Positions 23,319 through 51,900 of a DNA stretch of 64,000 nt are shown here, one piece after another. Both the position numbers and the translations under genes were made by a program. The notes beneath the pieces were generated by a model, which searched no databases, was not told where the DNA came from, and saw only the letters and a program-made list of their open reading frames with translations. Every line of letters starts with the position of its first letter. The stretch's first letter is position 1. The stretch comes from Ilex aquifolium (taxonomy: Eukaryota; Streptophyta; Magnoliopsida; Aquifoliales; Aquifoliaceae), in assembly GCA_951799425.1 (NCBI GenBank), contig OX637406.1:24608390-24672389 (forward strand). Reading direction: 5' to 3'.

Positions 23319-25842
23319 TGTAAAACCCGAGAAAAATTTGAACTTTTGTGAAAAAGGGTAAAAAGGTAATTTGCCACTATGGTACAGGTTGTAAACCTGA
23401 ATTTTTCTAGAGCTCGGATGACGAAACGGACATCACCGTTGGATTCGTCTTGCGAAATCTAGTTACCACGTCAAATTTCGTTGAATTCCGAGATAGTCGG
23501 ATTTTTCGCGTTTGACGAGGCGATCGAGCCTCGGGAGACCCAAAAACGAAATTCTGAATAAAATTTTAAATTTTGGGAAATAAAGGATGGCAAGTTAAAA
23601 TAAAAATATTTTGAACTTGAACCGGAGCGAAATTTAATCGTTTCGGGGTTAAAACGGACCCGGGAAATAAGGGACGTGTGGCGCGTTGTAGGCTAAGTAT
23701 TTAAAGGGTATTTAAAGGGGAGAAAATCATATTTTCCTCCCCATTTGTTCAGCCGATTCCAACGAGAGAGGAAGAGAGGGAAAGGGCTTGGGTTCTCCAT
23801 CTTCTCTCTACGATCTACGGAGATTGAGAGCTCAAATCCACTCGGGCCAAGAACAAAAGTTGTTCTCCTCGCCGAGGGCTACAAAACCATACCAAGGAGG
23901 TCGAGTTTTGGAGTGATTCGAAGAACGGGAATTTGGGAGAGTGAAGACTCCACCTCGTTTGGAGTTCTCGGAGCTTCTCAAAGTTGTTCTCTACACTTCA
24001 AGAGGTAGGGTTCCCTCCTACCAAGGTTTATTCCACACCTAGAATGCTTAGATGAAATGGGTAAATGAATAGATATAGATATATATGTATGTCATTTGCC
24101 TATGGTTGTGAAATTGGGTGAAATGGGTTGAAATCAATTCTAATTGGATTGGTAATTAGAAGTTTCTAAATGAAATTTCTAGGATTGAGTATATGAAATT
24201 AACCCAAGGTGACTCTTGGGCTATATGAAGTGTGGGCATGCTATGTGTTTATCTTGTGCTTGAAATTGAAGTATGTTATCTCTTGATAATGTGATGACAT
24301 GCTTGGGTGTTGATTAAGATTAAATGTTGATATATATACATGCTTGTGATACATTGACATTGTAAGGAAATATGGAAATTATATACTTATGATATGATTT
24401 TGCCATGAAGTGTGAGAAATGTATTGTAAATGTTCATATGTCACTCATACCATATTGAACATTGTAATATTATTGAAATGGGACATCACATTTCATATGC
24501 ACGGGAGCATTGCACTTAGTGGGTGTGTGTGCATGGTGGTTGTCTTCACCACGCTTGGTGGATGACGAGTGGGCTCGGGTAAGATGGGTTGATGACCTAA
24601 TCGAGTCGCACAGTTTGCACGGTTGTTAGGGTTGGGGTAGCAAGAAGGGCTAGACTATCCCTCGGGTGAGAGACCCGGTGATTGGATACGCACTCCGTTG
24701 GTATAAGAGTCCATAAAGTGTGTCGGTGTACGCGGAACTGTTGGTGGAAGTCCATGAATTCCGTGTCGGTTGGGTGCCGTTGGTGTAAGTCCATAAATAT
24801 CCACCCCAAGAAAGACCATAGAATGAAATGTCATTTGATGTACAACATAAATGACGGATTAGTACACATTGGCACTTGCATGTGTAGAGGAGCCGGGAGG
24901 GGCTCGGATGATATGCATGAATGGGTCTCATCTCATTCCATAGCATGGCATTGCAAATTCCATCATTGAATATAATTCCTTGCTTGGAATGTTATAAATT
25001 GTTGTTTTGGGCATGTGAACATTTCATATGCATATAGGTTGGGGAGTAGCCTCATTAGGAGATACCCTATTGAGCGTGGCTCACCCTTTGTGGGAAAAAC
25101 ATTTCAGGTGTTGGGTTTGCACCGGTGGATGGCTCACTTGGGGAGCATCAAGCATGAAGGGGGCCGACTTGTGGCCTTAATTTTGAGTTGTAAAGTTTTT
25201 ACCAAAATTTCCATTTTTGATGTATAAATTATGGGAATTGTTGTAATGGAATTTTTATAAAGCATGTTATATGGAAAATCCTATTACTCTGGTATTGGAT
25301 GAGTTGGGGAAGGTTTGGAAATGAAAAATGGAGGAAAAAGGCAAAACTGGGCAGAGAGTACCGGTACTGTGTACCGGTACCCCCTTTCCAGTGGGTTGAC
25401 AGTACCGGTACCGGGTACCGGTACTGAATGATACCGGTACTGTGTACCGGTACCCCCCTTTCCAGTGGGTTGACAGTACCGGTACCGGGTACCGGTACTG
25501 AATGGTACCGGTACTGTGTACTGGTATTGATTGGTACCGGTACTGGGTACCGGTACTCTCTCCAAAATTTTCAGATTTTCACACTGCTTCGCCCTATTTT
25601 CAATCTACGTTTTCCTTCCCTCCAATGATGTAAATGGACTAAAATGGAGTATAAATCATGGTATATTGAGTATTGGTTGAACCCAAATGAATAATCGAAT
25701 CCGGTTAACAATTGTGAATTAAGATCCCGGTTAAGGGGATGTTACTACCGTGGTGTTAGGTTGAGTGATATTCACGGGTATTTCCGCGGGTTGACGGGTG
25801 GTCAACGGTTAATATAGGACCCCCGAAAATTGGGGCGTCACA
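23319..25842 (+). mobile_element. S2: Tekay-like solo LTR, TSD ACAAG
   Basis: TGTAAAACCCGAG... to ...GGGGCGTCACA, 2524 bp, flanked by perfect ACAAG (23314-23318, 25843-25847). It contains the conserved U3 block (23410-23530), tatttaaag TATA-like motifs near 23697-23715, internal 'gttggt.taagtccataaa' subrepeats at 24700-24800, and a GTACCGGTAC array at 25355-25556. No internal region, so solo. Confidence 0.93.
25355..25556. repeat. Palindrome array, GTACCGGTAC type, in S2
   Basis: About ten decamers, mostly in pairs with 3-4 bp spacers, plus a duplicated segment of about 85 bp. The flanking DNA is homologous to that around the AACCTTCCGGAAGGTT array of S3 and S4. Confidence 0.93.
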
Positions 25843-25847
25843 ACAAG

Positions 25848-26062
25848 GACTTGTTGGAAATGGTTATGGTGATAATTGTGACTGAGCTTTACGGTTCATT
25901 TAAATTATTGCGAACATTTAAACTTGAGATCTATTTAAAATATCCTGCTTTTCCTTCAAAATGGTATATATGCTATTTGTGAAAATGAGACCAACCGTTT
26001 TATATGCTTTTCTAAACCTTGTTTGAGTTTGGGAAGATTTTGCTACAGAGCTTCGTGCTCAT
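25848..26062 (+). repeat. Z solo LTR, second piece
   Basis: Resumes Z after the second ACAAG and ends at CTCAT (26058-26062), the target site of LARD-1. It continues in the inverted block at 35211 down to 34701. Confidence 0.82.
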
Positions 26063-27891
26063 TGATGAGCGCATAATATTGCATATTTGAAGGGCTCATT
26101 ACATGCATTATAACTCAACTTTTGCATTTAAATACTTAGTGTTAGCCAAAATTGTCTATAATATTGATATTTTGATGTTGCAACATTTTATAGCTTAAAT
26201 GATTGATTTTAGGACATTGCAATCTTGATGGATGTGTGGTGAAGGCATGGACACAATACATGAAGAATTGGAGGCTTAAAAGTGAAGAAATCAAGAAGGC
26301 ATTGGTGCTTGGGAACAAGGGCACCAGCTGCAGCAACAATTGGAAGCACTGCCTCGGAATTCCTCCATTTTTACCATGATATACTCAGAATTTGGAAAAG
26401 TTCAAAACATGAAAGTTGTAGATATGGGTGTCTTCTATTTGGTGTCAAAATTTCAGCCCAATCCAACGGTTAGATCAAGAGTTATGTCAATTCTACCGAA
26501 TGTGGTCCAGTGCAGAAAAACAGTACCGGTACCCAGTACCGGTACTCCGGACCTTCTGGTCGCGAAAACAGCCTGTAACTCAACTTTGAGGCTTGGGGGT
26601 CCCACCTACACTTCTCCCACGCCTATCCCAACATTTCCTTACACATTTACAGGCCTCCTACACTCAAGTGGAAGACTTTAAAGGCCAATGCATTAAAGGA
26701 GGAATGGGGGGAAGTGGGCTGCCCAGGCTATGATCTCCTAGCCTGTCAAAGCCATCCATTCAGCCCTCTCTTGATGGGAGCTCGTACACACAGCTAGGGG
26801 GGAGCCTCTTGGACGTTTTGGCATGTCTCTACACTCCAATATATTTCAGCATTCACAACACATTGTGGGAGTTGGCTACCTAAGCTTAGAGTAGTTTTAG
26901 TGAGGAAGAAGATGAATAGTAAAGTTGTGATTTTTACATGTTCTTCCATCCATTTCTCTTGTAACCTCTTGTAAGGATATTGTAAGCTTCCTTTACTGTC
27001 TTTAATGCCATTTATTAGAAGTACATTTCAAGTTTAGCCTTGCACTTTACATTTCACCATTGTTATGCTTTCAAGTTCTTCATTTTCATGCTTTAAATTG
27101 GGTATTGTATTTCCTTCTTCTTACTTTAAGATTTCTTGCTTCAAGTTAAGTTTCATGCTTTAAATCTCCATTTCTCTTCCATGTCCATCTACATTATGCT
27201 TGTCTTGCATTTTTAATATGAGTAACTAGATTTAAGTTGGTTAATCCAAGGGAAAATTTCTCTTGGGAATACCATGTTCAAATCTTCTTCATTCCTCCCT
27301 TTAGAGTCAAATGGTTCGGTTTGACGGGGTTGAGAGTGGATGAGTTGGTGAGCCTTTGATATTCCGTAGGCCTAGTCACGGTTTATGCTTAGATACTCAC
27401 CAATCTCGTCCCTAACTTCCCCCGAATCAATCGTTCATTCATGCTCAATCGGAGGAAGGCTTTGAGTTGATTTGGTATTCCCATTGGAATGAACCCTTTG
27501 GATTAGCCAACACTTGCTTTCTTGCATTTTCATTTACAAACCAAACACAAAACTCAAATACAAGATTTTACACTTTCTTTTCACTTTTGCAAAATCACTT
27601 TCACAAAACTCCCTTTCCTTCCCTGAGGAGACGACCTTGGAATATTTTCCAAGTAAAACACACGACCACAAAAGACTCCTTTCGATTGGGGAGCATTTTT
27701 GTGCACACCGCATCTCATTCCATCTATTTTGTTCATCACATCTCCATTCACATCCATTTTGTTGTTGTTTCCTAATCTTTTGCATCATCCGGAGGGAGAG
27801 TGACACTCCCCCATTCCTATAAGCCATACACACATTGAGGGTGAGGGTGATGTTTAGAGGTTAGGAATAACAGCGCATTTTCAACCAATCA
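26063..27891 (+). repeat. 5' LTR of LARD-1
   Basis: TGATGAGCGCATAATATTG ... AACCAATCA, 1829 bp, near-identical to 31294-32930. It includes a short GTACCGGTAC pair (26521-26550) followed by a block (gcctgtaactcaa...gggtcccacct) shared with P LTRs. Small frames in both LTRs are duplicates of each other and not genes. Confidence 0.9.
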
Positions 27892-27894
27892 TTT

Positions 27895-27912
27895 TGGCGC
27901 CGTTGCCGGGGA
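27895..27912 (+). other. Primer-binding site, perfect tRNA-Asp
   Basis: TGGCGCCGTTGCCGGGGA, 18 nt complementary to the 3' end of plant tRNA-Asp, three bases after the LTR end. Confidence 0.95.
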
Positions 27913-28037
27913 AGGTAAAGCGTCGAGTTCGAGAGGTGATTTTGGGACGGCATAAGGTAAGTCTTGTGATTTTCATCACGGGCCAAGGTATGTCGTCTAA
28001 CTTGTAAATATTTTTGTTTTAGTTTGTGTTTTGTATT

Positions 28038-29024
28038 ATGTCTTATAATTTTTATGAAAATGTATATAATGCCCCATATTATGAAAATGTGTGTGAAATT
28101 TGTGATGACTATGGGCACATTACTAGTGAGTGCCCAAGAATGGCCTCTTATTTTGAAAACGTATACAAGATTTGTGGTGAGTATGGACACATCACTAGTG
28201 AGTGCCCAATAAATGCCCCTTATTTTGAATACGTTTGCGAAATTTGTGGTGAGAATGGACACCTCACTAGTGAATGCCCAATAAATTATCCGGTTCAAGA
28301 CCTTGAATGCGAAAGTTCAAATTCAGAGTTGGACTACCTAAATTTTTACCGCAACCATTATGATTCACCGAGTTACTCGAGTTATGGTGGGGAGAATGAA
28401 CCTCATGATTTATCATCCAATTTCACACAACCTAATGATTTTTGCCACTATCCAACATATAGGGACTCAACCGAACAAGAATTGGAAAATACGTTGTACG
28501 AGTTTATTCAATCCCAAATGGAATGCAATGCCCAAATGACCCAACAACTTTCTGTAATTAGTGATCAACTTAATACATTGACTAATGCTATAATTGCTAT
28601 GGATGAAGAATTACACCTTGAGCATAGTCAATGTATTGAGGATGATCACCCCATTGAAATACATATTGAGGTTGAATCTCCCACCACTCTTGATTGTGAA
28701 AAGTTTGATGAAGTGATTATCTCACATGAGGCTAATGAGCCCAAGGTCTTTTCTCCATCTAAGAGTGGTGTTGAGATTCACATTTCTCAACTTGGGGAGG
28801 GCATTGCAATGGAGTCAAGTGTTGAAACTTGTAAAGAAAAATTGTATACTCCATTTGTGGGATTGCATAAACTTGCCTACACATCTATTTGGTTGAGAAT
28901 TTTTAATCAACATCCTTTATATGTTTGGATAGATGGTTTAAGAATGGCATTGATGCAACAAAAAAATTTTAAAATCAAAAAAATCCATGGGCGTAAGGTC
29001 ATATCCGAATTGAAGCCGGATTGA
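28038..29024 (+). CDS. Gag-like protein with triplicated CCHC zinc knuckle (LARD-1)
   Basis: First ATG at 28038, about 328 residues, open to TGA at 29022-29024. The N-terminus is three tandem units of roughly 30 residues. Unit 1 has C-x2-C-x4-H-x4-C intact (C19, C22, H27, C32; CEICDDYGHITSEC). Unit 2 has lost its first Cys (YKICGEYGHITSEC). Unit 3 is intact (CEICGENGHLTSEC). An acidic low-complexity stretch follows, then a region like the Athila gag linker (ENTLYEFIQSQMECNAQMTQQL, compare MNQFIQSQMSFNT in Ap). No capsid domain, protease or RT. Knuckles at the N-terminus reverse the usual gag order. It may bind element RNA for packaging; this is inference. Confidence 0.75.
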   Translation: MSYNFYENVYNAPYYENVCEICDDYGHITSECPRMASYFENVYKICGEYGHITSECPINAPYFEYVCEICGENGHLTSECPINYPVQDLECESSNSELDYLNFYRNHYDSPSYSSYGGENEPHDLSSNFTQPNDFCHYPTYRDSTEQELENTLYEFIQSQMECNAQMTQQLSVISDQLNTLTNAIIAMDEELHLEHSQCIEDDHPIEIHIEVESPTTLDCEKFDEVIISHEANEPKVFSPSKSGVEIHISQLGEGIAMESSVETCKEKLYTPFVGLHKLAYTSIWLRIFNQHPLYVWIDGLRMALMQQKNFKIKKIHGRKVISELKPD

Positions 29025-31293
29025 CATGAGCCCTTGTTGTTTTGTTTCCATGTACATAGTAGTTAGATCTCTTTTATTGTCATATTTTTATTTTTCATGT
29101 CATTGTAGTATAATGGTGAGTATCATTGTAGTTTAGATTTTAACATGAAGCATGTTTCAGCGGGAGTAGTTTGGCAGACAAAGCAGAACAGTACCGGTAC
29201 TCAGTACCGGTACCAAATGGTACCGGTACCCAGTACTGGTACTAAAAGTCTACTGGAATCGCAGTACCGGTACTCGGTACCGGTACCAAAAGTCTACTGG
29301 AATCGCAGTACCGGTACTCGGTACCGGTACCAAATGGTACCGGTACCCAGTACCGGTACTGTTTGCCTGACAGACCCAATCTCTGCAATGCTGCTCCACC
29401 TGCTTTGAGGGCATCACCAGCATTTCTCCCCCATGTTCTAGTCTAAGTTGGGGGGTGTAAATGAGCTTTGTGTGTTTCATTTTCTCTTTTATGTTTATAT
29501 ATATAAAAAAAAAGGGGTATCTCATTTCTCATTTTACCTTCATTGTTTTCATTGCATGATTTCTTGTGCATTGAGGACAATGCATAGTTTAAGTTGGGGG
29601 GTGAGGTGCACCATTCACATGTTCCACCACTTTGTGTATAGAATAAGTTGGAAATGTGAAAATTTTGAAAAATTTTGGACAATTTTTGTGAAAAATAGTC
29701 AATATTGAACTATATTCCTCTATCCTAATTGTTATGGGATTTGTGAATTGCTTGATCTTCATTTTGAACTTTGAATACATGAGCACATTATAGAATTTTA
29801 TCCTATGCTTGAGTATCACATATGTGTTTTCTTTCAAACTCAACCATTGTGCACCTTGAATGTGTAATTTGGACAATTTACGGATTGAGTTCACATTTGA
29901 GTGCTTGACATGAATAGTGGAGATGAGTAAGAACCCATGTGAGCTTTAATGCCAATCCTTGTTTGGAGGGAACTTACATTTACTCAAGGAGCAATTTTTC
30001 AAATTCTAAATTTGTTCAATAATCTCATTATGTTTGTTTTGGTTAGGTGCTTTTGGGTAGTTGATTGACTTTGTCTTGATTGTACAATGCTCCCATATGC
30101 TTATCTAGAGATGATCTTAGGCCATCTTTGAAATTCTTTGAGCCTTTGCCTTTTTCTTGTGAAAATATTATCCCTAGTGCCGTGATTGAGCCTTAATTGA
30201 ATTCGTTTCTATGTCACACATGTAACCAAGCCAATAAAATTGATAAATATCTACCTTACCTTGGTTGTTCCTAGTGCTAAGTTGGGTGATGATAAAACAA
30301 AAGGGATGAAGGATGTTGAAACTCAAAAGAGTTCAATGGAAAAAGAATGAAAATCCAAGAAAAGGTGAGAAAGGGAGTGAAAAAGGAGAAAAAGAATGAG
30401 AAAAAGAAAAGGGAAAAATGTAAAGGAAAAAAAAAAAAAGAAACAAAGGGTGTGGTGATGGTGTGAAAATCAAAATCCCATAAAAGGGAAGTGTTTTTCT
30501 AAGATTAAGGTCATTCACCCGGAACAACCCTCTTTGTTATCCTATATCCTTTGTTTCCCTTACCACAACATCACCCCAAGGCCTCATTACAACCCATGAA
30601 AGTCCTAAAAGATCTAGAGAAGCATGGGGGATGCATACTTTTAAAGAAAAAGAGAAGTTATTTTTACTATCTAATGCCCTAGCATTCCTTTCATGAGATT
30701 ATGCCAAGGTTGTTTCATTTGTATACATGTGCTTCATTTTTGGATTATATGTGAGCATTTTGGTTTGTGAATAAGATTCTATCTCACATATACACATGGA
30801 GTGCATGCTAGGATAATCATTGAGTTATTCATTTTTGAGAGAAACCCTTGGTGAGTTTTTGCATCAAAGCTTAATTTGGATAGCCACGTGAATGTGAACT
30901 CCATTGTGTAAATGTTTAAATTACATGTTCATTTCACACACACACGAGTTTTGAAAGGAAATGTGTATGTGGATACTCTAGAATAGCATTTAAAGCTATA
31001 ATGTGTTGCATGTGTTTTTAGTTAGGATGTTTTGAACATAGTTGTTTTATTGAAATCCCATCACTAGTTAAGATAGGGGAATATACTTTAAATATTGGAT
31101 ATTAGCAAGAAGTTTATAGGTACCTTCACTGGAAACCTTCACGAGACAAAACTCGTCCACTAGGGATCACCTAGGGGTTTAAAGGCTTGTTGCATGTGCT
31201 AAATGCAATTGCGGAATTAGTATAGGTTTATTTTTGTTTGCTTGCTTTTACATTTTGTTTGCTAGGGACTAGCAAAGCTTAAGTTGGGGGGTG
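29025..31293 (+). other. 3' non-coding region of LARD-1
   Basis: Contains a GTACCGGTAC array (29191-29360), the signature 'attgaggacaatgc...agttggggggtgagg' (about 29571-29606), purine-rich patches, and finally the PPT agttggggggtg (31281-31293). Homologous in order to 6200-7800 in W. No gene supported. Confidence 0.75.
29191..29360. repeat. Palindrome array, GTACCGGTAC type, in LARD-1 3' region
   Basis: About ten GTACCGGTAC decamers, mostly paired, with a segment (gtctactggaatcgcag) repeated between pairs. Confidence 0.92.
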
Positions 31294-32930
31294 TGATGAG
31301 CGCATAATATTTCATATTTGAAGGGCTCATTACATGCATTATAACTCAACTTTTGCATTTAAATACTTAGTGTTAGCCAAAATTGTCTATAATGTTGATA
31401 TTTTGATGTTGCAACCTTTTATAGCTTAAATGATTGATTTTAGGACATTGCAACCTTGATGGATGTGTGTTGAAGGCATGGACAAAATACATGAAGAATT
31501 GGAGGCTTAAAAGTGAAGAAATCAAGAAGGCATTGGTGCTTGGGAACAAGGGCACCAACTGCAGCAACAATTGGAAGTACTGCCTCGGAATTCCTCCATT
31601 TTTACCATGATCTACTCAGAATTTGGAAAAGTTCAAAACATGAAAGTTGTATATATGGGTGTCTTTTGTTTGGTGTCAAAATTTCAGCCCAATCCAACGG
31701 TTAGATCAAGAGTTATTCCGATTCTACCGAAGGTGGTCCAGTGCAGAAAAACAGTACCGGTACTCGGGACCTTCTGGTCGTGAAAACAGCCTGTAACTCA
31801 ACTTTGAGGCTTGGGGGTCCCACCTACACTTCTCCCACGCCTATCCCAACATTTCCTTACACATTTACAGGCCTCCTACACTCAAGTGGAAGACTTTAAA
31901 GGCCAATGCATTAAAGGAGGAATGGGGGGAAGTGGGCTGCCCAGGCTATGATCTCCTAGCCTGTCAAAGCCATCCATTCAGCCCTCTCTTGATGGGAGCT
32001 CGTACACACAGCTAGGGGGGAGCCTCTTGGACGTTTTGGCAAGTCTCCACACACCAATATATTCAGCATTACACATTGTATTAGAAGTTGGCTACCTAAG
32101 CTTAGGAGTAGATGTAGAAAGCTCCAAGGTTGAAGATGATGAATAGTAATTTCGTTTTTGCATTTTCTTCATCCATGTCATTGCTGTAAGCTACATTCCT
32201 CTTGTAATCTTCATTTCTTACATTGTAATCTCCTTTATTTCAAGTATATTGCAAGTTAATTACATGTTCTTCATTTCACCATTTATGCTTTCAAGTTCTT
32301 CATTTTTAGCTTAAAATGGGTATTGAATGTTTTTGTTCATAGCTTTAGATTTCTTGCTTCAAGTTTAGTTTCATGCTTTAAAGCTTCATTTCTATACAAT
32401 GTCTTTCATTTACATTATGCTTGTCTTTCCTTTATGCATTTTTAATATGAGTAGCTAGGATTTAAGTTGGTTAATCCAAGGGAAAATTCCTCTTGGGAAT
32501 ACCATTTTCAACTCTTCTTCATTCCTCCCTTTAGAGTCAAATGGTTCGGTTTGACGGGGTTGAGAGTGGATGAGTTGGTGAGCCTTTGATATTCCGTAGG
32601 CCTAGTCACGGTTTATGCTTAGATACTCACCAATCTCGTCCCTAGCTTCCCCCGAATCAATCGTTCATTCATGCTCAATCGGAGGAAGGCTTTGAGTTGA
32701 TTTGGTATTCCCATTGGAATGAATCCTTTGGATTAGCCAACACTTGCTTTATTTTCATTTTCATTCACAAACCAAACACAAAACTCAAATACAAGATTTT
32801 ACACTTTCTTTTCACTTTTGCAAAATCACTTTCACAAAACTCCCTTTCCTTCCCTGAGGAGACGACCTTGGAATATTTTCCAAGTAAAACACACGACCAC
32901 AAAAGACTCCTTTCGATTGGGGAGCATTTT
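31294..32930 (+). repeat. 3' LTR of LARD-1, truncated by the TRIM
   Basis: Begins TGATGAGCGCATAATATTT right after the PPT and matches the 5' LTR until 'ggagcatttt' at 32930 (TSD half ATTTT, 32926-32930). Only one GTACCGGTAC remains at 31753. Confidence 0.9.
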
Positions 32931-33023
32931 TGTAACACCCCGTACCCGCCTCTTAAAAGAGGTAGTACAGGATCTCACAGATCTCCCCCAAGCAACCGAT
33001 GTGGGACTAGCCAGGATCTCACA
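32931..33023 (-). mobile_element. TRIM solo LTR (variant, 93 bp) at left inversion breakpoint
   Basis: Reverse complement of the TRIM LTR (TGTGAGATCCTGGC...GTGTTACA), with an internal difference of about 20 bp. Left flank ATTTT belongs to the target site in LARD-1 LTR; right flank GATTT (33024-33028) belongs to the target site in S3. The two flanks come from two different insertions. Confidence 0.88.
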
Positions 33024-34256
33024 GATTTTTTATAGAGACATAACTTTTATCTCAAACGATCATTGGGAGGGTTTCTCCGTCAATAGACGGGTTCATACAC
33101 GTTGGCTTTGGCATTGTGTTGTGTGAGTCGGGGAAGACTTGGGATAAGGTGCGTGAGTGAGTTCCATCTCATATCATGGCATGACATAGCATAGCATGGT
33201 AGCTTTCTAACATTGAAGTATATACTCTTGTTGGATTGGTTGATGCTTGTTGATTGTTGCATGTGCGCATTTCATATGCACTTAGGTTGGGGAGTAGCCT
33301 CTGTAGGAGGATATCCTATTGAGCGTGGCTCACCCTTCGTGGGACAACATTTCAGGTGCGGGGTTCACGCCGGCGGACGGCTCCCAATGCGAGCCCCAAA
33401 GTTGAAGAAAGCCGACTTGTCGCTTTTATGGTTATTTAGTAAAGTTTTTGTAAGAATTCCATTTTGAGATGTAAATATATGGAATGAATTGTGATAGAGC
33501 TTGTATGAGTTGTGTATTATATTGAAAAGCTCATTAAACATATGTTGGATGAGTTTGGAGTGTATGGGGTAGCTTTAAGGATGGTTTGGAGGGGAAAGAA
33601 ATCCATTTTTTTTGCTCACAGTCTGAAAACCTACCGGAAGGTGTATGTCGGCCTTCCGGAAGGTTTTGCTAAAAACCCTGGATGCCTTGTTCACGGCTAA
33701 TACCTTCCGGAAGGTTTTGCCCACTGGAATGAACCTTCCGGAAGATTTTAGCTACTGGAGTAAAACCTACCGGAAGGACTTGTCTACTGGAATGAACCTT
33801 CCGGAAGGTTTTGCCTTGGGTTTCTTTTTGACTGCCAAAATCTTCCGGAAGGTTTTGTTTTCTGGAATGAACCTTCCGGAAGGTTTTGGCTACTGGAATG
33901 AACCTTCCGGAAGGTTTTTGCTATTGATGTCGACCTTCCGGAAGTTCTTGCAATTGATCCTTTTCATTTAACTGTTCTTTCAGCGACCTTCCGGTAGGTG
34001 TATGTCGACCTTCCGGAAGGTTTTTCCAAAAATTTGAAATTTTCAAAATGCTTAGCCATGCTTTTGGGCTTTGTTTTCTTTGGTTCCTATGACATAAATG
34101 GACATAAATTGAGGTATAATTGACCTTGTGGATGGTAAATCCGGTCAAAAGCATGTGAATGACGTGGTGTCGGGTTATACGACTATCACGAGTATTTCCG
34201 CGGGTTGACGGATGGTCAACGGTTAATAAAGGACCCCCGAAAATTGGGGCGTCACA
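33024..34256 (+). mobile_element. S3: Tekay-like solo LTR, first half (inverted), TSD GAATC
   Basis: Homologous to S4 (48963-50110) in opposite orientation. Ends ...GGGGCGTCACA at 34256, next to GATTC. The second half is at 36555-38428. Contains an AACCTTCCGGAAGGTT array at 33628-34022. Confidence 0.9.
33628..34022. repeat. Palindrome array, AACCTTCCGGAAGGTT type, in S3
   Basis: About twelve copies of the 16-bp palindrome, with a looser period of about 33 bp and linkers like 'ttgcccactggaatg'. It gives spurious open frames with repeating LPEGF/PSGRF/TFRKV. Confidence 0.95.
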
Positions 34257-35211: not shown

Positions 35212-35216
35212 ATGAG

Positions 35217-36018: not shown

Positions 36019-36220
36019 CAAAATGATTGGTTGATAATTACGTCGTTCCTAACCTCGTAACATCACCCTCACCCTCAATGTGTGTATGTGGCTTATAGTG
36101 ATGGGGGAGTGTCACTCTCCCTCCGGATGATGCAAGAAGATAGGAAACAACAACAAAATGGATGTGAATGGAAATGTGATGAACAAAATAGATGGAATGA
36201 GATGCGGTGTGCACAAAAAT
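36019..36220 (-). repeat. End of LARD-1 3' LTR (inverted)
   Basis: Minus strand gtgcacaccgcatctc...ccaatca continues exactly where 32930 stops (gagcatttt), showing the original continuity across TRIM A. Confidence 0.9.
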
Positions 36221-38428: not shown

Positions 38429-39056
38429 GAATCTCCCACAATGGGAGTATTTATAAGCAAGGAGGAGGAGGTAAAGAAGTGTAAAAGAATAGTACAAAGT
38501 CCTCAAAGTCTAAGTGAATTCCCTATGGTCCGACTAGAAAATCAACCACTCTGCAGCCTGTCTGGGAACTACATTCGAACATTTAATGGAGTTCGAACGT
38601 TGAATCTTGTCTTCTGTTATGGGCGTTCGAGCGCTTAATGGAGTTTGAACGTGGACTCAAGTGGCTTTTGTCACCCACAGTAAATAGCAAGCCATGTATC
38701 ATCACTATGGCAGTCTTGTCCTTAAATAAATCAAGATGACGTTCGAACGTTGTACTCAAGTAGCTCTTGGTCTTTTGTGAAAATAACTACAACACGACAT
38801 ATGCCATCACCTCAGCAGTCTGTTCTTCAAATAATTCAGTAGGAAGTTCGAACGTGGATTGGCGTTCGAACATTTGGTCCGAGTTCCAAACTTCTCCAAT
38901 TTTCTTCCAGAACATGTGGGCGTTGCATGAAAGTTTGGTATCCATTGACTTTAGGCTTTCGTGCAACTTGTTCCTGAAATGTCATCATTTAAACTCCATC
39001 AAAGCATAATTAGTCTTGTTAAAGAATAGTAAGATGCAAATTTTAGCTATTCATCA
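38429..39056 (-). repeat. Y1 3' LTR, U3 piece
   Basis: LTR start TGATGAATAGC on the minus strand at 39056, after PPT-like ttaggttggggtg. TATA (minus) at about 38447-38458. CGTTCGAACG-type palindromes at 38572-38880. Matches 59560-60170. Confidence 0.88.
38572..38880. repeat. Palindrome array, CGTTCGAACG type, in Y1 LTR
   Basis: About eight variants of (A)CGTTCGAACG(T), often paired with 9-16 bp spacers, upstream (minus strand) of the LTR TATA box. Confidence 0.88.
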
Positions 39057-40816: not shown

Positions 40817-41078
40817 TCAAATCATCCAAAAACAACAACCAGTCATCCACTCTCTCGTCTCCCCAGCGATTGAAGGTCCTCTAACTCCACCCCTCAAAAA
40901 GCTGAGAATCTCCTCCTGCTGTTAGAGAATCTCATCTTACTTGGCCTCGATGCCAAGCATGATGTCCCGTAATGACCATCGGGTGCTGGTGCTGGTACCT
41001 GCCTCAGTCTGGTTTGTGCCTGTGCCCCTGCCTCCTTGGCCCCTCTCTGTTCCTCGGCGTCCAAAGTATCCTGCACCT

Positions 41079-42733
41079 TGCTTGACTTATTCCCTCGTTC
41101 CTAAATCTCCGAACATGAACCCACAATGTGTATATGGCTGAGTGAGTGTCACTCTCACTCGGGTTCGATGTGAGAAATGGGAAACAGATGTGTGAATGAA
41201 ATGTGTGTGTGTGAACAAAAGTGCTCCCCAAGCGCAGAGAGACTTTTGAGTGTCGTGTTTTACTTAGAAATCGTATTCCAAGGTCGTCTCCTCAAGAAAT
41301 GAGGTGAATTGTTTTGAAGGTGATTTTGGTGAAAAAGGAAAAGTGTAAAAATATTTGAGGTTTGAGTTTGGTAATATGTGTTCTTGATGAAAATGAAATG
41401 GAAACAAGTGTTGACTAATCCGAAGAGGTCATTCCAATGGGAATGCCAAATCAACTCAAGACCTTCCTCCAATGGTGCCTAGATGTTTGATTGATTCGTA
41501 GGAAGCGCGGGACTAAAATAGAGGTGAGGATTCAAGCATACGCCGTGACAAGTCTACGGTGTATCAAGAACTCACAGCCGCGTCTACACTCAACCTACTC
41601 AAACCAAATCATTGTACACTATGAGGAGGAATGAAAAAGAGTTGATTTAGCATGCCCAAGAGAGTTCTCCCTTGGATTAGCCAACTTAAAGCTTAGCTAC
41701 TCATACTTAATGCAAGAACATAAATGGAATAAAGAGACATTGTAAAGCAATGAAGATTGGAACTTAAATCAATGCAAGAAAAGTTAAATTGAGAAGAAGT
41801 GCATTGAATACCCATATTAAAAGCTTGAAATGTAGAAAACTTACTCCAACAATGGTAGAATCTAAATGGTGTATTTAAACTTGCAATGTACTTGAAATAA
41901 ATGACATTAAAGACAATAAATGAAGCTTACAAGACTCGTACAAAAGATTACAAGTGAAATGGATGGAAGAAATGTAAAAATCTAAGCTTTCTCTCTATAA
42001 ACTATGTCTTCTTTCTTGGAGCTTCTCTCTCTACAATGCAATACAATCTGAATAAAATTTAAAGGAGCCTGCATTTTCGTCCATGAATCTTCTCCTAGGT
42101 GTGTGACAGACCTCTGATCCTTAGGAGGCTGATTGGAAGGCATTGGGCAGGCTAAGATAGCCTACCCAGCAACTCCCAGGCTTCCTCTCTTCTCTCTCCT
42201 CCTCATTAATGCTCAAGCCTTCAAAGTCCAAGGCTAGGGTTGAGGAGGCATGTCTGTGTGTAAGGAGTGTCAGGGAACAAGTGGGAGACCCATGGGTTGG
42301 ACCCCTATCTGGCAGAGCTTTAGTTGCAGAATCTGGCATTTTTCAGCAAAACCTACCGGTAGGTCGATGGCCAAACCTACCGTTAGGTTTTACTCCAGTA
42401 GGCAAAACCTTATGGTAGTTTTTCGGTAGAACCCACTCTAGTAGCCAAAACCTACCGGTAGCTTTATGACAAACCTACTGGTAGGTTTTAACTTGTTTTG
42501 CTTAAATGTTGATTCTTTCACCTCCCAAGCCCTCATCAAGCCTCCTCCTCAACTCCATTGATCTTAAGCACCATAATAGGGGCCTAACATGCACCATTTA
42601 AGCTCTTTTACCTGCAAACACACCAAAACCTCAATAAAAGCTCGAAACATTGCAATTCCTCTCATTTCACCACAAAAAAGAGTATAAAAGGGGTGTAAAT
42701 GCACACATGATATGCAATATTTCTTTCTAATCA
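41079..42733 (-). mobile_element. P3: solo LTR of family P inside Y1 third ORF
   Basis: Minus strand TGATTAGAAAGAAATATTGC (42733) to ...AAGTCAAGCA (41079), 1655 bp. Flanks CACCT (41074-41078) and CACGT (42734-42738) look like a target repeat with one mismatch. Its start and body are related to the LARD-1 LTR. It contains an AACCTACCGGTAGGTT array at 42350-42490. Confidence 0.83.
42350..42490. repeat. Palindrome array, AACCTACCGGTAGGTT type, in P3
   Basis: About six copies of an A/T-swapped relative of the AACCTTCCGGAAGGTT palindrome, at the position where P1 and P2 carry the latter. Confidence 0.9.
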
Positions 42734-43636: not shown

Positions 43637-45180
43637 GATTCTCAGATTTTTGGGGTTTTAGGGCAATAAAAGTTTGGATTTCTTGGTGAAAAGGTGAGAA
43701 ATGAGGTGGGAATGTGTTTGGGATGGTGGATTTTGGGTAGAAATTGAGAATGAATGGGGTTTAGAGGATGGGGAGGTGAAAATTCGACGAGGGTTTGCAA
43801 GGGTTTTGGGTGATTTTGAAATGGAGAAGACAAACCAGGTATTTATAGCCAAGCAGACAACGTTTGAACATTACTAACGTTCGAGCGTGTATAGAAGGAT
43901 TTTTAACAAATAGTTTGAACGTTACACTGTCGTTCGAACGTTTAGTGCTCCCAGTACTTTTCATGTCCTATAGAGGCCAAAGTACTGTGAGCTCCTGGCG
44001 CTCGAATGTGGATATGGCGTTCGAACGTTGGGTCCTAGTTCAAACGTTAATCATTCCTTCGAACATTTGGTGCTCCCAGTACTTTTCATGTCCTACATAG
44101 GCCAAAGTACTGTGAGCAGCCAACGTTCGAACGTGAACTGGCATTCGAACGCCAAATCAAAAATCATAATTTTATGCACATTTATATACACACATTAAAA
44201 GAAGGCTATATACATAATTTGAACTTGGAAAAACCGTAGCGTCTCAAGATAAGTCCCTACCCATGCTTCAGGTTGGTATTCTAAGACATTCCTTACTCAG
44301 CCCACGTTTTCATTTCAACAAAAAATTGTACAATTAACCCAAAGATATTTACACTTTTTACAAAAAAGTTCAGACCTTTGGCTTTCATCCCAAAAACACA
44401 GTTTTTCTCAATTTTGTCGAAAAGCATTCTAATTCGAGTCTTCCCCTATCTCCATGCCATTCGAACAATTAGTGGCTCTTTTAATTTTTGTCGCACAAAA
44501 CGTGTAAGTACAGTACCGGAATAACATGGCGTCTTAGGATAATCCTTACTCTGCCAATTCACTATCCCGTCTAATCAATCGAGTGCGCGACCGAAAATTG
44601 GTTCAGAACACTGATTACATTCTTTCATGTGAAAGATCCTGCCACATTGTTTACAGACACCAAGTCTTTTGGCACGGACGTTTAACAAAAGTGCTTATGC
44701 CACACAGTGGTTTTGCTTGCTCTTCTTGGATTTCAGTTTTTCTCACCAATCTTGCTTTTCCCATTATCATAGAATGCACATCAGATTGAAAAAGTGCGTA
44801 AAATGCCTAAACTGAACCAAAAAATCTTACTATCCATGCTTGCTAAGCTTAGGACACTTTATCTGGTTCTTTACCGTCTGCCAGTCACAATGATGATTAG
44901 AGTTGCTTTAAAGACATGATCATCAATTTTTTTATATATATACTATAAAGACTGTATAAATATGAAATACAACACAGAATAGGGAATACAAGACAAAATA
45001 CGCAATATGATCAAGAAAAATTTTGAACTGTAGTTCTCACCCCCAACCTAAACTCAACATTGTCCCCAATATTTCGAATTTACCAGTATACTCAAAGTAG
45101 AGTTAGGATTGAAAGTAGAGATTTGTTCATCTGCCGATGCCTACAAACAAAATACACAAATTAATCATCTTTACGAAGAT
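43637..45180 (-). other. Y1 spacer between pol and third ORF, with palindromes and internal TATA
   Basis: Contains the signature attggggacaatgttgag...aggttgggggtgag on the minus strand (about 45040-45075), degenerate CGTTCGAACG palindromes (43858-44155) and a minus-strand TATA ggctataaat (43841-43850) about 205 bp before the third-ORF ATG. No gene. Confidence 0.75.
43841..43850 (-). promoter_or_regulatory. Candidate internal promoter TATA of Y1 third ORF
   Basis: Minus strand GGCTATAAAT, directly downstream of the palindromes and 205 bp before the ATG at 43636. Same arrangement at 63357-63366 in Y2. Confidence 0.6.
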
Positions 45181-45189
45181 CAGGGTTTC

Positions 45190-47007
45190 GGCTAGGATGA
45201 AAATCCTTGTGCGTGAGTGTAAATAGAAGCAGGACACCCATTAGCAAGTACAAAATTAAAATGCAAAACATGAAGCAAATGATTGTGTCGGTGGAGTGTG
45301 TGGCCATGGTGTTGTAGAAAGTGGATCATTTTACGGAAAAGGGAAGAATAAGAAGAAGAAGAAGAAGAATAGCGGCGAATGGGGGAAATAGGGGAAAGGG
45401 TTGGAGGCCTTATGAAGGCATCCTTTCGGGTCGGGTTGGGTTGGATTGGATTGGATTGGATTGGATTTTTCCAGACCCGACCCCTTTTGTGCCGGTAGAC
45501 GCGAATCTCGGAGAAATATTCTGGATCCATTATGAAAATGGTTTCTACATCTTTAACAAAGTCTTCAAAAAATGGTTTCAAACGCTGACCATTGACAGTA
45601 AAAATATTCCCATTTGATGGATTTTTCACTTCCACTGCTCCATGTCCAAACACTGGTTTGACAATGTAAGGCCCAGTCCACCTTGATCTCAACTTACCAG
45701 GAAACAAGCGGAGCCTTGAATTAAATATGAGGACTTTCTGTGAAGGGACAAAGGATTTTCTCACTATGTTTTTGTCATGAAAAACTATCATTTCCTTTGC
45801 AATTTTGGCATTGTCATATGCCTCATTTCTCAACTCTTCCAACTCATTAATCTGAAGTTTTCTTAAGATTCCAGCCATGTCTAGGTCAAAGTTCATTGTT
45901 TTAATAGCCCAATATGCTCTGTGTTCCAATTCCACAGGTAGGTGACAATGCCTGCCATAGACTAATCGATAATGAGACATGTCTAAAATTATTTTAAAAT
46001 GAGTGCGATATGCCCAGAGTGCATCAATTAGTCTTAACGACCGGGTTTATTATTTTTCTAAAAATCAGTTTGATCTCTCGATTAGCTAATTTAGCCAGTC
46101 CACTAGTCTATTGATGATAAGGGGTTACAATTTTATAAGTAATCAAGTACTTTTCATCAAATTCCAAAAAGGACGATTGCAAAAATGAGCACCCCCATCA
46201 CTTATAATGGATTTAGGAATTCCAAACCTGGACAAAATATTTTCTTTTAAAAATTTGATCACTGTTCGGCGATCATTATTTCGGCATGGAATTGCTTCAA
46301 CCCATTTGGGCACATAGTCAACAGCCACTAAAATATATAGATAGGCAAAGGAAGAAGGAAATGGTCCCATAAAATCGATGTTCCAACAATAAAAAATTTC
46401 AATTACCAGAATTGGGTTCAAGGGCATCATGTTTCTTTTAAAAATGCTTCCCAACCTTTGGCATCTATCATATGTTTGACAAAAGGCATGGACATCTTTA
46501 AAAAGTGTGTGCCAATAAAATCCACACTACAAGGTTTTCGCAACGGTTTTTTTAGATGAAAAATGGCCACCACATGCTTCAGAATGACAAAAAGATATTA
46601 CATGTTTGCTCTCATGATTGGGGATGCAACGCCTTATGATTTAATCCTTATAGTACTTAAACATGTATGGATCCTCCCAAAAGAAATTACGAATCTCCCT
46701 CAGAAATTTCTTCTTATCCATCATTGTAAAGAAAGGAGGAAATGTACTAGTAGCAAGGAAGTTAGCAATATCAGATTCCCATAGTGTTTCCATGACTGTG
46801 AACAGTTGTTCATCAGGAAAATTTTCATTGATTGACAACCTATCCTCATGAAATTCATATGTTTACCTGGATAGATGATCTGCCACCACATTCTCAACAC
46901 CTTTCTAAGAGTATCCATCTTAAGAGTCTTGGATTGGCATCTTTCTTTGTGAGCAAGAATTTTAATGCTGCATGGTCAATGAACACAATAATAGATGAAC
47001 CAACAAG
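45190..47007 (-). pseudogene. pol: pol 3' part of Y1 (RNase H end, integrase), degenerate
   Basis: Minus strand from 47007: RNase H tail (IIVF.DHAALKFLLTKKDANPRLLRWILL) with an internal deletion running into ENVVADHLS-like sequence; then integrase finger region (46.9-46.5 kb, frame-shifted); catalytic core at 46454-46143 (NIDFMGPF, IISDGGAHFCN, giving the two Asp); a deletion removes the Glu region; C-terminal part at 45980 to about 45500 ([26 protein letters not shown] ... [11 protein letters not shown]). The frame then runs on through a GGATT-repeat tail to 45192. Athila lineage. Cut at 47007 by P2. Confidence 0.87.
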
Positions 47008-47175
47008 TGCTTGACTTATTTTGTCGTTCCTAATTTTGACCATGATTCCGGTAATATGTATGTGGCTTATACGGTTAGGTGAGTGTCAGTAATGTGCATG
47101 TGGCTTATGCGGTTAGGTGAGGGTCACTCTCCCTCGGATATCATGCAAAAAATGGGAAAACGGGTGTGTGAATGA

Positions 47176-47210
<35 letters not shown>

Positions 47211-48667
47211 GTGCTCCCCAAGCATAGAGAGACTTTCAAGTGTCGTGTTTTACTTGGAATTGGTATTACAAGGTCGTCTCCTCAGGGAAGGAAGGTGAAT
47301 TGTGTTGAAGGTGATTTTTGTGAAAATAGAAAAGTGTAAAAATATTTTGAATATGTGTTTGGATGAGTTGTGTTCTTGATGAAATGAAATGGAAACAAGT
47401 GTTGGCTAATCCAAAGAGGTCATTCCAATGAGAATGCCAAATCAACTCAAGACATTCTTCTAATGGTGCCTAGACGTTTGATTGATTCGTAGGAAGCGAG
47501 GGACTAAACGAAGGTGAGGATTCAAGCATACCCCGTGAGAAGTCTACGGTGTATCAAGAACTCACAACCACGTCCACACTCAACCTAGTCAAACCAAACC
47601 GTCTTACACTACGAGGAGGAATGAAAAAAGAGTTGATTTAGCATACTCAAGAGGAATTTTTCCTTGGATTAGCCAACTTAAAGCTTAGCTACTCATATTG
47701 AATGCAAGAACATACATAAAGGAAAGAGACATTGTGAACAAATAAAGATTGGAACTTGAATTAATGCAAGAAAAGTTAAACTATGAAGAAGTGCATTTAA
47801 TAAAAGCTTGAAGTGAAAAACTCAATACAACAATGGCAGAATCTGGAATTCATAACTAAACTTGCAATACAATTGAAATAAATGACATTAAGTGTAATAA
47901 ATGAAGCTTACAATAGTCTTAAAGCAGATTACAAGTGAAATGGGTAAAGGAAAAATTCAAAAATCTAACTTCTCTCTGTAAACTATGTATTCCTCCTTGA
48001 GCTTCTCTCTCAAAAATGCTGAACAATGCTGTAAATATGTCAAGTGATCCTTGTATTTTCGTCCATGGAGGTCTTCTAGCATGTGTGATAGGCCTCCCAT
48101 CAATGGAGGCTGAGTTGATGGCTTTGACAGGCTTGGACAAGCCTAGCCTGCAACTTCCCAGGCTTCCCTCTTATCTCTCTTCCTCATAAATGCTTGGGCC
48201 TCCAAAGTCCAACCTTAGGCAAGGGGAGGCATGTATGTGTATAAGAGATGTCAGAGACAAGTGGGAGAATCATAGGTGGTACCCTAAAGTAGAAGGGCTT
48301 GAGTTGCAGGCTGTCTGGCATTTCTGGGCAAAACCTTCCGGAAGGTCAATGCAAACCTTCCGGAAGGTTTATGCAGAGCAAGAAGAAAAATATGTCCAGT
48401 GACCCAAACCTTCCAGAAGGTCGATGCAAACATTCCAAAAGGTTTATTCCAGTAGACAAAATCTTCTGGAAGGTTTTGGCAGTGCATAGGTAGACTAAGT
48501 GCAAACCTTCCGGAAGGTTTATGGCCAAACCTTCCGGAAGGTTTTCATCCAATTTTCCATTTTCTTGGTTTCTTCACCTTTCAATCCTTCCTTTAAGCTA
48601 TCCCCTAATCTTCATTGACATTAAATACTACGATGAGAGCTTAACTCAATCCATTTACAACTCTTCA
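47008..48667 (-). repeat. P2: family-P LTR, truncated by Ap
   Basis: Ends (minus) ...AAGTCAAGCA at 47008, exactly as P3 does at 41079, inside Y1 RNase H. It contains a (GT)n run (about 47183-47204) and an AACCTTCCGGAAGGTT array (48330-48546). The U3 start is missing beyond 48667, where the Ap LTR begins. Confidence 0.82.
48330..48546. repeat. Palindrome array, AACCTTCCGGAAGGTT type, in P2
   Basis: About six 16-bp palindromes, in pairs spaced about 9 bp (tcgatgcaa, tatggccaa). Confidence 0.92.
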
Positions 48668-48962
48668 CCTAATTAGTATGTGAATTAGAATAGTTAAATA
48701 AGCTAACTTAGTAAGCTAAAACAGTAAAAAAAACTGTGTATTAGGGTTTGTGCGTAAACTAGGGTTTATGTGCGTAAATGTTTGAAATTTCAGGGTTTTG
48801 TGCGGAATTGCTGGAAACTACATGGGGCAATCTGTAAAAGCTTAAGAGAACAAGGGCAGCAAGTGCAATATAACCAAGAAATAATTAGAACACTCTGGAG
48901 ATCACCACCACAAACCAGCAAAGGAGCACCGTCCGGACGGTCCCTTTAGGCGGTTTGAGCTC

Positions 48963-51900
48963 TGTGACGCCCCAAAACCCGGGGGTCCTTTATTAACCGT
49001 TGACCATCCGTCAACCCGCGGAAATACTCGTGATAGTCGTATAACCCGACACCACGTCATTCACATGCTTTTAACCGGATTTACCATCCACAAGATCAAT
49101 TATACCTCAAATTATGTCCATTTATGTCATAGGAACCAAAGAAAACCAAGCCCAAAAGCATGGCTAAGCATTTTGAAAATTTCAAATTTTTGGAAAACCT
49201 TCCGGAAGGTTTTGACTCAACCTTCCGGAAGGTTTGCTCACTGGAAAAGTTCTTCCGGAAGGTTTTGCCTTCTGGAAATAGATTGAAAAAATGAAACGTG
49301 TCGGCCTTCCGGAAGGTGTACTCAAACCTTCCGGAAGGTTTTGCTCACTGGAAAGGTTCTTCCGGAAGGTTTTTCTTAACCTTCCGGAAGGTTTTGCCTT
49401 CTGGAAAATAGATTGAAAATGAGACGTGTCGACCTTCCGGAAGGTGTACTCCACCTTCCGGAAGGTTTTACCTTCTGGACCACAATTCTGCCTTAACCTT
49501 CCGGAAGGTGTTAGTGACCTTCCGAAAGGTTTTGCCCAGAATTTCTTCCTTCCTTAGTTTTTCAATTCGAATCCGTTTCAATTTGCTTCAAAATCATCCA
49601 AAACTTATACAATGAAGTTTCTAACATAAAACATTGTTTGTACAAGTTCTATTACAACCCAATACATATATTTACATGTCAATATCAAATTTCCTTAAAA
49701 TTTTTACAAACATTCAAAACAAAGCCACATCCGGCTTTCTTCGTCCTTGAAGCCCGTATGAGGGTCTTCCACCCATGCATATCCCACACCTGAAAATGTT
49801 GTCCCACGAAGGGTGAGCCACGCTCAATAGGATATCCTCCTACAGAGGCTACTCCCCAACCTAAATGCATATGAAATGCGCACATGCAACGATCAACAAG
49901 CATCAACCAATCCAACAAGAGTACACACTTCAATGTTAGAAAGCTACCATGCTATGCCATGTCATGCCATGATATGAGATGGAACTCACTCACGCACCTT
50001 ATCCCGAGTCTTCCCCGACTCACACAACACAATGCAAAAGCCAATGTGTATGAACCCGTCTATTGACGGAAAAACCCTCCCAATGATCGTTTGAATTAAA
50101 AGTTATATCTTTATAAAATCAAATCATTGTTTGAGGCTACCCATTGAATGGGTGTTTTTATATAACAAAATCTTGTGTCTTCCTGGGCAACGGATTTTGG
50201 AATCGCACCGCCGGCTCCGTGGGCCTATCTACACTTTTTGGACTTGCACCGTCGGAGTGTATGAACCAGTGGTTCCGGGTTTTTCACCCGAGGGAGTGTC
50301 TAGCCCTACTTGTTTTACCCGACACAAGTTTTCCTTATGCAATGCAACCGTGCAACTCAGTCGGATCTTCGATCCCGACTTTCCCGAGTTCACATACCAA
50401 CCACCAAGATTTGGTGTTTGATCCACAACACATGCACACACCCACATTCATACCTATGACCCATGAATGCGATGTCAACTCACCCACACACATTCATGTC
50501 TTATAACCATATGTGATGTACCCATGAGAATGCAATGTAATGTACCCTTGCATCTTCTCCACATGTTCAATATGTATGAATGCCATATGAACAACTCAAC
50601 AATAAATCCACATATCCATGGTACTTCATATCATAAGCATATGAATACCATAATTTAACACATTGTCAATATATAGCAAGCATGCATATATCAACATTTC
50701 ATCCAATAACCATTTTCAAACATGTTATCACATAAGCATGCAATTAACATAGCAAACTCATCAATACATCATTTTCACCAAGGCATTTAATCAACACCTT
50801 CGAACCACCCAAAGCATGTAATCATATAATATACTCAATTTCTTCATCAACTCAAGAATTCATATCTAGTGATTTCTACACAATTATACCAAGATATAAT
50901 TTATTCTATCCATTTCTTAATATCCACATATCATAATCTCCCAAGAGAATTATAAAGCAACCACCTCTAAATGCCAATTCCATTTAGAATTTCACTTTAC
51001 CAATTTTCCCATATCCATTTTCTACACTTCAAGTTCCTTTATGAAATTTACCCAACAAGTAAATATATACATCCATTTCATACCAACCTTGCTTAGCACA
51101 TTTGGTACCCATTTCCCACACATGAATTTCATTAGTAGTACAGTAAACTAGAGAATGTGATTTAAATCATGATACCCATTCTCAATACCCATTTCACCCA
51201 AATAACCACAATAGGCAAGTGATACATATATACATACACCTACCCATTCCATATAACCTTCCTAGGTTGGAAATAAACCTAAGTAGGAAGAAAACCCTAC
51301 CTCTTGTAGCGTGTAGAATCGCCGTGGGAAGCTCCTAGAACTCAAAGCAAGCTTGAATCCTTCACTTCCAAATTTTCGGCCCTCCAACGTTCGGTGAAAG
51401 CCGTCGTTTTTGGTACCCACGCGTAGCCCTCGACGCGTAGAGCAACTCTTGTTCTTGGCCCGAATCGATTTGAGCGCTAGAACGGAGTAGATCGTAGAGA
51501 GAAGGTGGAGTTTTCTCTCATTTTCCCTCTCTTCTTTTCTCTCGGCTGAAACCGGGTGAATGGTGAAGGAGAAGTCTGATTTTTCAGACTTTAGGCCCCT
51601 ATTTATATTTTTAGGATACTTGGCCCACAATTGGCCACATGTCCTATTTAATTTTGGGTCCGTTTTAATCCCGAAACGACTAAATTTCGCTCCGGTTCAA
51701 GTTCGAATTATTTTTATTTCAACTTGCCTCTAATATTTCCCCAAACTTTAAAATTTTATAAAAATTTCGTGCACGGGGTCACCCGAGGCCCGTTCGTCTC
51801 GTAAAACGCAAAAATCCGACTATCTCGGAATTCAACGAAATTTGACGTGGTAACTAGATTTCGCGAGACGAATCCAACGGTGGAATCTGTTTCGTCATCC

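Follow-up and report, generated by a model that had tools for sequence, protein, structure and literature searches.

Arrays of short palindromes in retrotransposon promoters have a described precedent in the long terminal repeats (LTRs) of Sireviruses, which belong to Ty1/copia. According to the part of PMC2829016 available to us, these LTRs carry arrays of element-specific, CpG-rich palindromes, termed RM boxes, upstream of the TATA box, with further copies in the internal region and nearly identical boxes in diverged elements. The motif is called Sirevirus-specific there and is absent from the classic Ty1/copia elements compared in that part of the paper, and one of 13 Sirevirus elements lacks the CGG-CCG core signature. 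The maize Sirevirus palindrome is also found in Helitrons, as stated in the accessible portion of PMC10760457. Here we analyze palindrome arrays in the LTRs of plant-type retrotransposons within 64,000 nucleotides of Ilex aquifolium contig OX637406.1 (positions 24,608,390 to 24,672,389; hereafter the window) and in related loci of the same genome. The first-pass annotation of this DNA knew of no described system like it; this was wrong in part, as the Sirevirus LTR arrays (PMC2829016) and the VANDAL/VANC arrays (PMC5735166) illustrate in the sections of these papers at hand.

The arrays are probably promoter-proximal U3 enhancers composed of class-exclusive dimer sites and a constant co-motif, and moved between LTR families by recombination. 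Three CpG-centred 8-base palindromes recur in the window, TACCGGTA 31 times, TTCCGGAA 26 times and GTTCGAAC 16 times, while each remaining palindrome of this kind occurs at most twice. Across the genome (800,232,872 bases searched), we counted 7,077 copies of AACCTTCCGGAAGGTT, 1,723 copies of AACCTACCGGTAGGTT and 12,088 pairs of the form GTACCGGTAC-N3-GTACCGGTAC. The same patterns read backwards, used as controls, gave 0 in all three cases, so that chance is excluded. The exact 16-mer AACCTACCGGTAGGTT has no match in the window, where the longest palindrome is ACCTACCGGTAGGT. Both palindrome types have CC·GG as the order of their core (GTACC·GGTAC and CTTCC·GGAAG), and both contain CpG. Arrays are named below by half-site: GTACC for GTACCGGTAC, CTTCC for CTTCCGGAAG and CTACC for CTACCGGTAG, the last two together being CTWCC.

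The repeated unit is composite, with the palindrome followed after 8 bp by a directional motif, YWCTGGA, that is common to all classes and goes unmentioned in the first-pass annotation. Among distinct intervals of 31/32 bp, the motif is present in 16/19 GTACC and 17/26 CTWCC cases, compared to about 0.2 expected per set from shuffles. Its start lies 8 bp after the core in 19/19 GTACC and 45/49 CTWCC cases and at 7 bp in the other four, as measured in distinct gaps of the sampled loci with cores 17-60 bp apart. The exact unit occurs genome-wide 3,156 times as GTACC-GTACC and 6,733 times as CTWCC-CTWCC, with mixed counts of 1 and 0, the patterns stopping at base four of the second palindrome. 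One mixed GTACC/CTWCC unit against 9,889 pure ones bears out the annotation's view that the arrays are homogeneous as blocks. Just one GTACC/CTWCC neighbour pair was seen in the sampled loci, a chance match 118 bp away that lies outside an array. CTTCC and CTACC do combine, as half-site hybrids, in 18/175 units of the first 20 CTTCC loci.

Because the palindromic site NNNCC·GGNNN is two-fold symmetric, a dimeric protein probably binds it, and a second factor probably binds the directional YWCTGGA(R) 8 bp away. Each array would then present one specificity among the half-site classes GTACC, CTTCC and CTACC, except that CTTCC and CTACC can combine. As to the binder, the only leads are LOB-domain factors, which bind CCGG-type sites, and SBP factors, which bind GTAC.

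Alternatively, the arrays could be kept as RNA or DNA hairpins whose letters are immaterial beyond self-complementarity. Such hairpins would be a by-product that small RNAs target, or they would cause reverse transcriptase to jump. The S3 and S2 arrays of the window indeed fold far better than shuffles (z of -12.09 and -9.51), a property expected of any self-complementary repeat and by itself no evidence of function. A small-RNA excess over maize Sirevirus palindrome clusters is cited in the available part of PMC10760457, and recombination is observed adjoining our arrays (see below). However, hairpins alone would not limit the genome to a few palindrome words, nor would they keep a non-palindromic YWCTGGA conserved at 8 bp in all classes or hold GTACC apart from CTWCC, and we consider this explanation improbable.

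Other palindromes were noted in passing. The third word, (AAC)GTTCGAAC(GTT), forms pairs 17-18 bp apart in other repeats (window 59683-59984, 63380-63404, 43932-44150 and 38574-38871, two of them near TATA-like boxes) and is also present in locus L019, near CTATAAAAG. A further class is possibly represented in locus L009, where four GTCCGGAC palindromes at 3007-3099 form two pairs, 22 bp apart; a single ACCGTCCGGACGGT is present in the window, at 48928.

Apart from the LARD copies (see below), loci outside the window (L numbers) are the first matches listed on contig C1 and not a random sample: 20 + 11 CTTCC loci plus four from the first genome-wide search, 20 + 6 GTACC loci and 20 CTACC loci. 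We denote as S the Tekay-like LTR group, and as P, K, LARD and TATA-type further LTR groups. The name Tekay is that of the first-pass annotation and has no tree behind it, and our domain classification covers S alone. The arrays and landmarks of the window are the following.

8110..8298, plus strand: CTTCCGGAAG array of a further LTR group, assigned by its flank modules (6 and 7)
22239..22334, plus strand: GTACCGGTAC array of the TATA-type group, with TATAAA 47 bp downstream
25358..25556, plus strand: S2 array of the GTACCGGTAC class between native S flanks, with YWCTGGA on the minus strand
25650..25655, plus strand: TATAAA of the S2 LTR, 93 bp downstream of the array
25832..25842, plus strand: 3' end of the S2 LTR (GGGGCGTCACA), oriented by TGGTATCAGAGC in L001 and the pol strand in L117
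26063..27702, plus strand: 5' LTR of LARD-1, with limits from BLAST
26523..26545, plus strand: array of the LARD-1 5' LTR, two GTACCGGTAC units
28023..29021, plus strand: 333-residue open frame in LARD-1 with CCHC zinc knuckles
29191..29359, plus strand: internal array of LARD-1, 10 GTACCGGTAC units and two YWCTGGA motifs
31294..32933, plus strand: 3' LTR of LARD-1, with limits from BLAST and a GGGGGG polypurine tract before it
31754..31763, plus strand: array of the LARD-1 3' LTR, one GTACCGGTAC unit
33557..33630, plus strand: P/K-type upstream flank of S3 (about 70 bp) inside a Tekay-like LTR
33631..34019, plus strand: S3 array derived from K, CTTCC plus CTACC·GGAAG hybrids, with native S flank and TATAAT (34115) after it
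34246..34256, plus strand: 3' end of the S3 LTR (GGGGCGTCACA)
42353..42484, minus strand: array of a P-type LTR, CTACCGGTAG class
48335..48540, minus strand: array of a P-type LTR, CTTCCGGAAG class
49199..49528, minus strand: S4 array of the CTTCCGGAAG class, native S flanks on both sides

S4 has TATAAT at 49104 on the minus strand, and its LTR 3' end lies at 48963. The internal LARD-1 array is followed by a flank resembling that downstream of P arrays (72% over 72 bp). The CTACC array at 42 kb was grouped with P by one clustering, and its second flank has no match in the module assignment. Within the LARD-1 open frame, 72-bp tandem repeats at 28068-28304 encode the repeated CCHC zinc knuckles. 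A polypurine-tract-like sequence, AAGTTGGGGGGTG, is repeated inside LARD-1 (29445, 29591, 31281), which recalls the multiple polypurine tracts of Sireviruses.

The central observation of the first-pass annotation, that different palindromes occupy the same site of homologous LTRs, is confirmed: S2 carries GTACCGGTAC where S3 and S4 carry CTTCCGGAAG, and the LARD-1 LTRs (26523, 31754) carry GTACCGGTAC where P LTRs have CTTCCGGAAG (48335-48540) or CTACCGGTAG (42353-42484). S3 and S4, described there as having the same array, do share CTTCCGGAAG at the homologous site, but the S3 array came from another LTR family. After sorting flanks into modules, some assigned weakly at 65-70% identity, the S group (modules 0s and 2) contains 7 GTACC, 5 CTTCC and 1 CTACC arrays, plus 18 S3-type arrays. 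The P group (0p and 1) contains 5 GTACC, 4 CTTCC and 11 CTACC arrays, and the LARD group (3 and 1) 7 GTACC arrays of at least two units, 5 CTTCC and 3 CTACC. The TATA-type group (5 and 4) has 5 GTACC and 1 CTTCC, a hybrid pair of modules (4 and 0s) encloses 3 GTACC arrays, and group 6 and 7 has 3 CTTCC arrays, with 3 CTACC arrays matched by module 7 alone. Left out of these counts are arrays with at most one assignable flank, namely those of L058, L077, L044, L091, L103 and L106, a second array in each of L036, L043 and L090, and the 29-kb internal array. All three palindromes are thus found between homologous flanks in three LTR groups (S, P and LARD), and two in a fourth (TATA-type).

Flank trees of the sampled loci separate the palindrome classes for the most part. 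Mean identity between GTACC and CTTCC flanks is 0.62-0.66 in S, 0.42-0.49 in P and 0.71-0.72 in LARD. Within classes, mean flank identity is 0.66-0.99, compared to 0.42-0.72 between classes in these three groups; in the TATA-type group, the two flanks have between-class means of 0.58 and 0.86. The sharing of palindromes by unrelated elements, also claimed originally, is real, but "close" overstates the kinship of the relatives that differ. Two exceptions appear in the trees: the S pair of L056 (GTACC) with L054 (CTTCC), with a local support of 0.964, and, in the TATA-type group, L052 (CTTCC), which is placed within the GTACC members (0.990). L054, L056 and L099 are S relatives with flanks 68-80% identical pairwise and three different palindromes, a resemblance that is suggestive of class descent. 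Most subfamilies in the sample have a single fixed palindrome and deeply diverged flanks, so that switches between GTACC and CTWCC, although present in at least four backgrounds, look few and old. For this sample, that is largely the outcome which the annotation had named as a refutation of its view. Recurrent gene conversion among close relatives is unsupported by the flank trees.

The position of the arrays relative to the promoter was assessed from the S elements. The internal S piece of L117 encodes reverse transcriptase, RNase H, H2C2, integrase and SH3_Tf2-1 (E 7.5e-29) in the Ty3/gypsy order, and judging by these domains the S elements are Ty3/gypsy elements with a C-terminal SH3/chromodomain-like part. 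The 5' LTR of L001 ends with GGGGCGTCACA, and the sequence after it contains TGGTATCAGAGC, which we take to be the initiator-methionine primer-binding site. As TGGTATCAGAGC follows this LTR and pol lies on the same strand in L117, the S LTR runs from module 0s through the array and a TATA-like box to its end. An inverted insertion of the S3 cassette had been suggested by the S LTR end, which when read as TGTGACGCCCC resembles a start; given this order, the cassette is in the sense orientation and the inversion is rejected. A TATA-like match lies 83-100 bp downstream of the array in 13/16 S and S3-type arrays, and 47-54 bp downstream in 7/8 TATA-type or hybrid arrays, L064 being the one with no match.

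The conservation of palindrome and motif was compared to that of the sequence around them. In S3-type loci (11 distinct arrays), non-majority bases amount to 4/1,320 in the core, 1/385 in the motif, 62/2,579 in spacers and 56/2,193 in flanks (core and motif versus spacer, p 1e-7 and 0.0035), and CpGs are altered in 3/264 core positions versus 8/132 in spacers (p 0.008). The five S-GTACC arrays have 4/430 in the core and 0/49 in the motif versus 23/260 in spacers. LARD was followed in 30 copies, the best 30 of 40 scored matches among 2,092 candidates, two of which are the window's own LTRs; they have 2/830 in the core versus 176/3,578 in the upstream flank, and their 10 longer arrays 1/400 in the core versus 6/120 in spacers. 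In the two array sets with better sampling, changes in palindrome and motif are rarer than in spacers by a factor of about eight, a pattern that fits selection on a putative binding site.

The number of units, on the other hand, turns over quickly: it is unequal between the two LTRs in 5/5 putative LTR pairs of the sampled LARD loci, spaced by about 5 kb (L006/L007, L012/L013, L015/L016, L027/L028 and L029/L030). Such fast change, together with subfamilies mostly fixed for one class, is what neutral tandem-repeat turnover would give if a few lucky subfamilies had been amplified, with palindromes and purity as founder effects. Conservation of core and motif relative to spacers of the same arrays argues against this account, as do identical words in an identical geometry across four or more flank groups, and we give it a low probability.

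Several points weigh against an interpretation as bound enhancer arrays before a TATA box. L068 and L037 have no TATA-like match, and L056 has only an implausible one at 20 bp; 4/7 TATA-type matches are TTTAAAA; L065 and L076 have only TATAAT where the box of their relatives is altered; and the pattern used gave no TATA in the LARD-1 LTR. No clear conservation effect is seen in three K/L051 arrays (core 3/380, spacer 6/733, flank 21/600) or in three LARD-CTTCC arrays (core 0/120, spacer 6/684, flank 1/598). The rates pool related copies, which makes the p values above optimistic, and 11/17 S3-type loci lie inside C1:60-192 kb. Selection of loci required at least one perfect palindrome, and the LARD comparison of cores with the upstream flank skips cores with more than two mismatches. 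Finally, spacers shared across classes are no closer than column-shuffled ones, so that descent of GTACC from CTWCC units by way of shared spacers was dropped and common descent of the two is unproven.

Movement of arrays between families is best seen in S3, documented by alignment as a Tekay-like LTR that has received an array and about 70 bp of flank from family K while keeping its own S promoter. The S3 block matches the K loci L092-L094 at 96-97% identity over 473-476 bp, and L046 and L048 at 90-91%; its left junction lies near 33556-33560. The LTRs of these five K loci begin with TGATTAGCAC, and their alignment with the 48-kb P LTR continues past the left edge of the cassette at about 68%, indicating that the block is native to K. 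L051 as a recipient of an S cassette is excluded, the block being native to K according to L092-L094. In 18/18 S3-type arrays, the K/P upstream flank adjoins the array and S flank lies beyond; the S match starts where the K match stops in 15/18 (at 71, after a K match of 1-74), and is weaker and overlapping in 3/18 (window S3, L045 and L053). The CTACC sites of these arrays are the half-site hybrids CTACC·GGAAG and CTTCC·GGTAG.

Besides this one cassette swap, we found a single-junction recombinant of LARD and K. L051, L095 and L096 have the start of a LARD LTR followed by K sequence, the LARD part matching at 85% over 179 bp (L095, L096) and 94% over 85 bp (L051); among 40 scored matches to L051 (3,353 candidates), a LARD-like upstream part is present in 28 and absent in 12. 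The departure from K sequence falls on nearly the same base in the two recombinant types (TGGA followed by GTGTATGGGG; L051:87 and S3 33556-33560) and adjoins a TGGA common to both partners. The two LTRs of LARD-1 are mosaic: a stretch of roughly 420 bp differs by about 30%, the remaining 60-bp blocks outside the array differ by 0-8% each, and the array itself has 2 versus 1 palindrome units; this mosaic and the hybrid arrays of modules 4 and 0s appear as signs of further recombination. Exchange could have proceeded either by reverse-transcriptase template switching or by DNA recombination. The demonstrated swap replaced a CTTCC-type array by another, and no recent GTACC/CTWCC swap was found in the sample. 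Of the causes originally proposed (recurrent gene conversion, template switching or concerted selection on a binding site), block transfer with breakpoints and a conservation pattern compatible with site selection are supported, and recurrence between close relatives is not.

Under the enhancer-array interpretation, elements would come to share a class by two routes. Recombination would carry an array and some flank into another LTR, with the recipient's core promoter kept; the rarer and ancient route would be a change of the whole palindrome set of an array, enabled by the fast loss and gain of units. The arrays might instead be targets of a transposon-encoded anti-silencing or activating protein similar to VANC, with the sites of other families as hitch-hikers. 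VANC offers a precedent of tandem motif arrays that change together and of a motif common to an unrelated element (PMC5735166, available part), and LARD-1, apparently non-autonomous, shares its type of site with S elements that have an open pol frame. On the other side, the Pfam scan of six unassigned window frames gave no candidate gene (three without a match and three with matches below cut-off), three further frames of at least 150 residues lying outside the scan and few long frames remaining in the window. Several families with different classes would moreover require several VANC-like proteins, and this explanation, too, seems unlikely to be right.

A bolder extension of the enhancer-array interpretation, which we put forward tentatively and think rather doubtful, is that palindrome class marks mutually exclusive regulatory clans, which unrelated LTR retrotransposons would enter or switch through the trade or conversion of entire arrays ahead of an unchanged core promoter. 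Members of one dimeric DNA-binding protein family would read GTACC, CTTCC/CTACC and perhaps GTTCGAA, and a change of clan would possibly escape the silencing of one clan. Beyond this extension, host proteins have to be able to read a retrotransposon promoter that nevertheless evades silencing, and shared symmetric words, pure arrays and traded arrays make up a countable record of regulatory specificity passing between mobile elements. The prediction is that a small set of proteins reads these words together with YWCTGGA, and the thousands of copies should make switches, half-site hybrids and swaps datable and countable.

Compared to the Sirevirus boxes, the arrays described here are alike in clustering upstream of TATA within the LTR (S, TATA-type and hybrid arrays), in having extra internal copies, in one element only (LARD-1, 29191-29359), and in that different elements hold different palindromes. 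They differ in their carriers, a Ty3/gypsy rather than Ty1/copia family in the case of S, beside LARD/P elements, and in their CC·GG core, the reverse of the Sirevirus CGG...CCG arrangement. The constant motif at fixed distance, the class exclusivity, the measurement of constraint and the cassette swap with breakpoints go beyond the available part of PMC2829016. The VANC/VANDAL system of Arabidopsis likewise involves short non-coding tandem motifs with concerted change and gain or loss of units; there, it is VANDAL elements that carry the motifs, the protein that binds them is known, and the word "palindrome" is absent from the main text of PMC5735166, as far as the accessible version goes. 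Complex LTR elements of Triticeae are, in the accessible part of PMC1950507, similarly two-parent retrotransposon fusions attributed to template switching, but whole complex elements are concerned there and only the U3 array region, in many copies, here. The tandem repeats of Retand offer a looser parallel (PMC11963269, available part). Taken together, and within the portions of these papers at hand, the Sirevirus RM boxes seem closest to our arrays in kind and the VANC arrays closest in behaviour.

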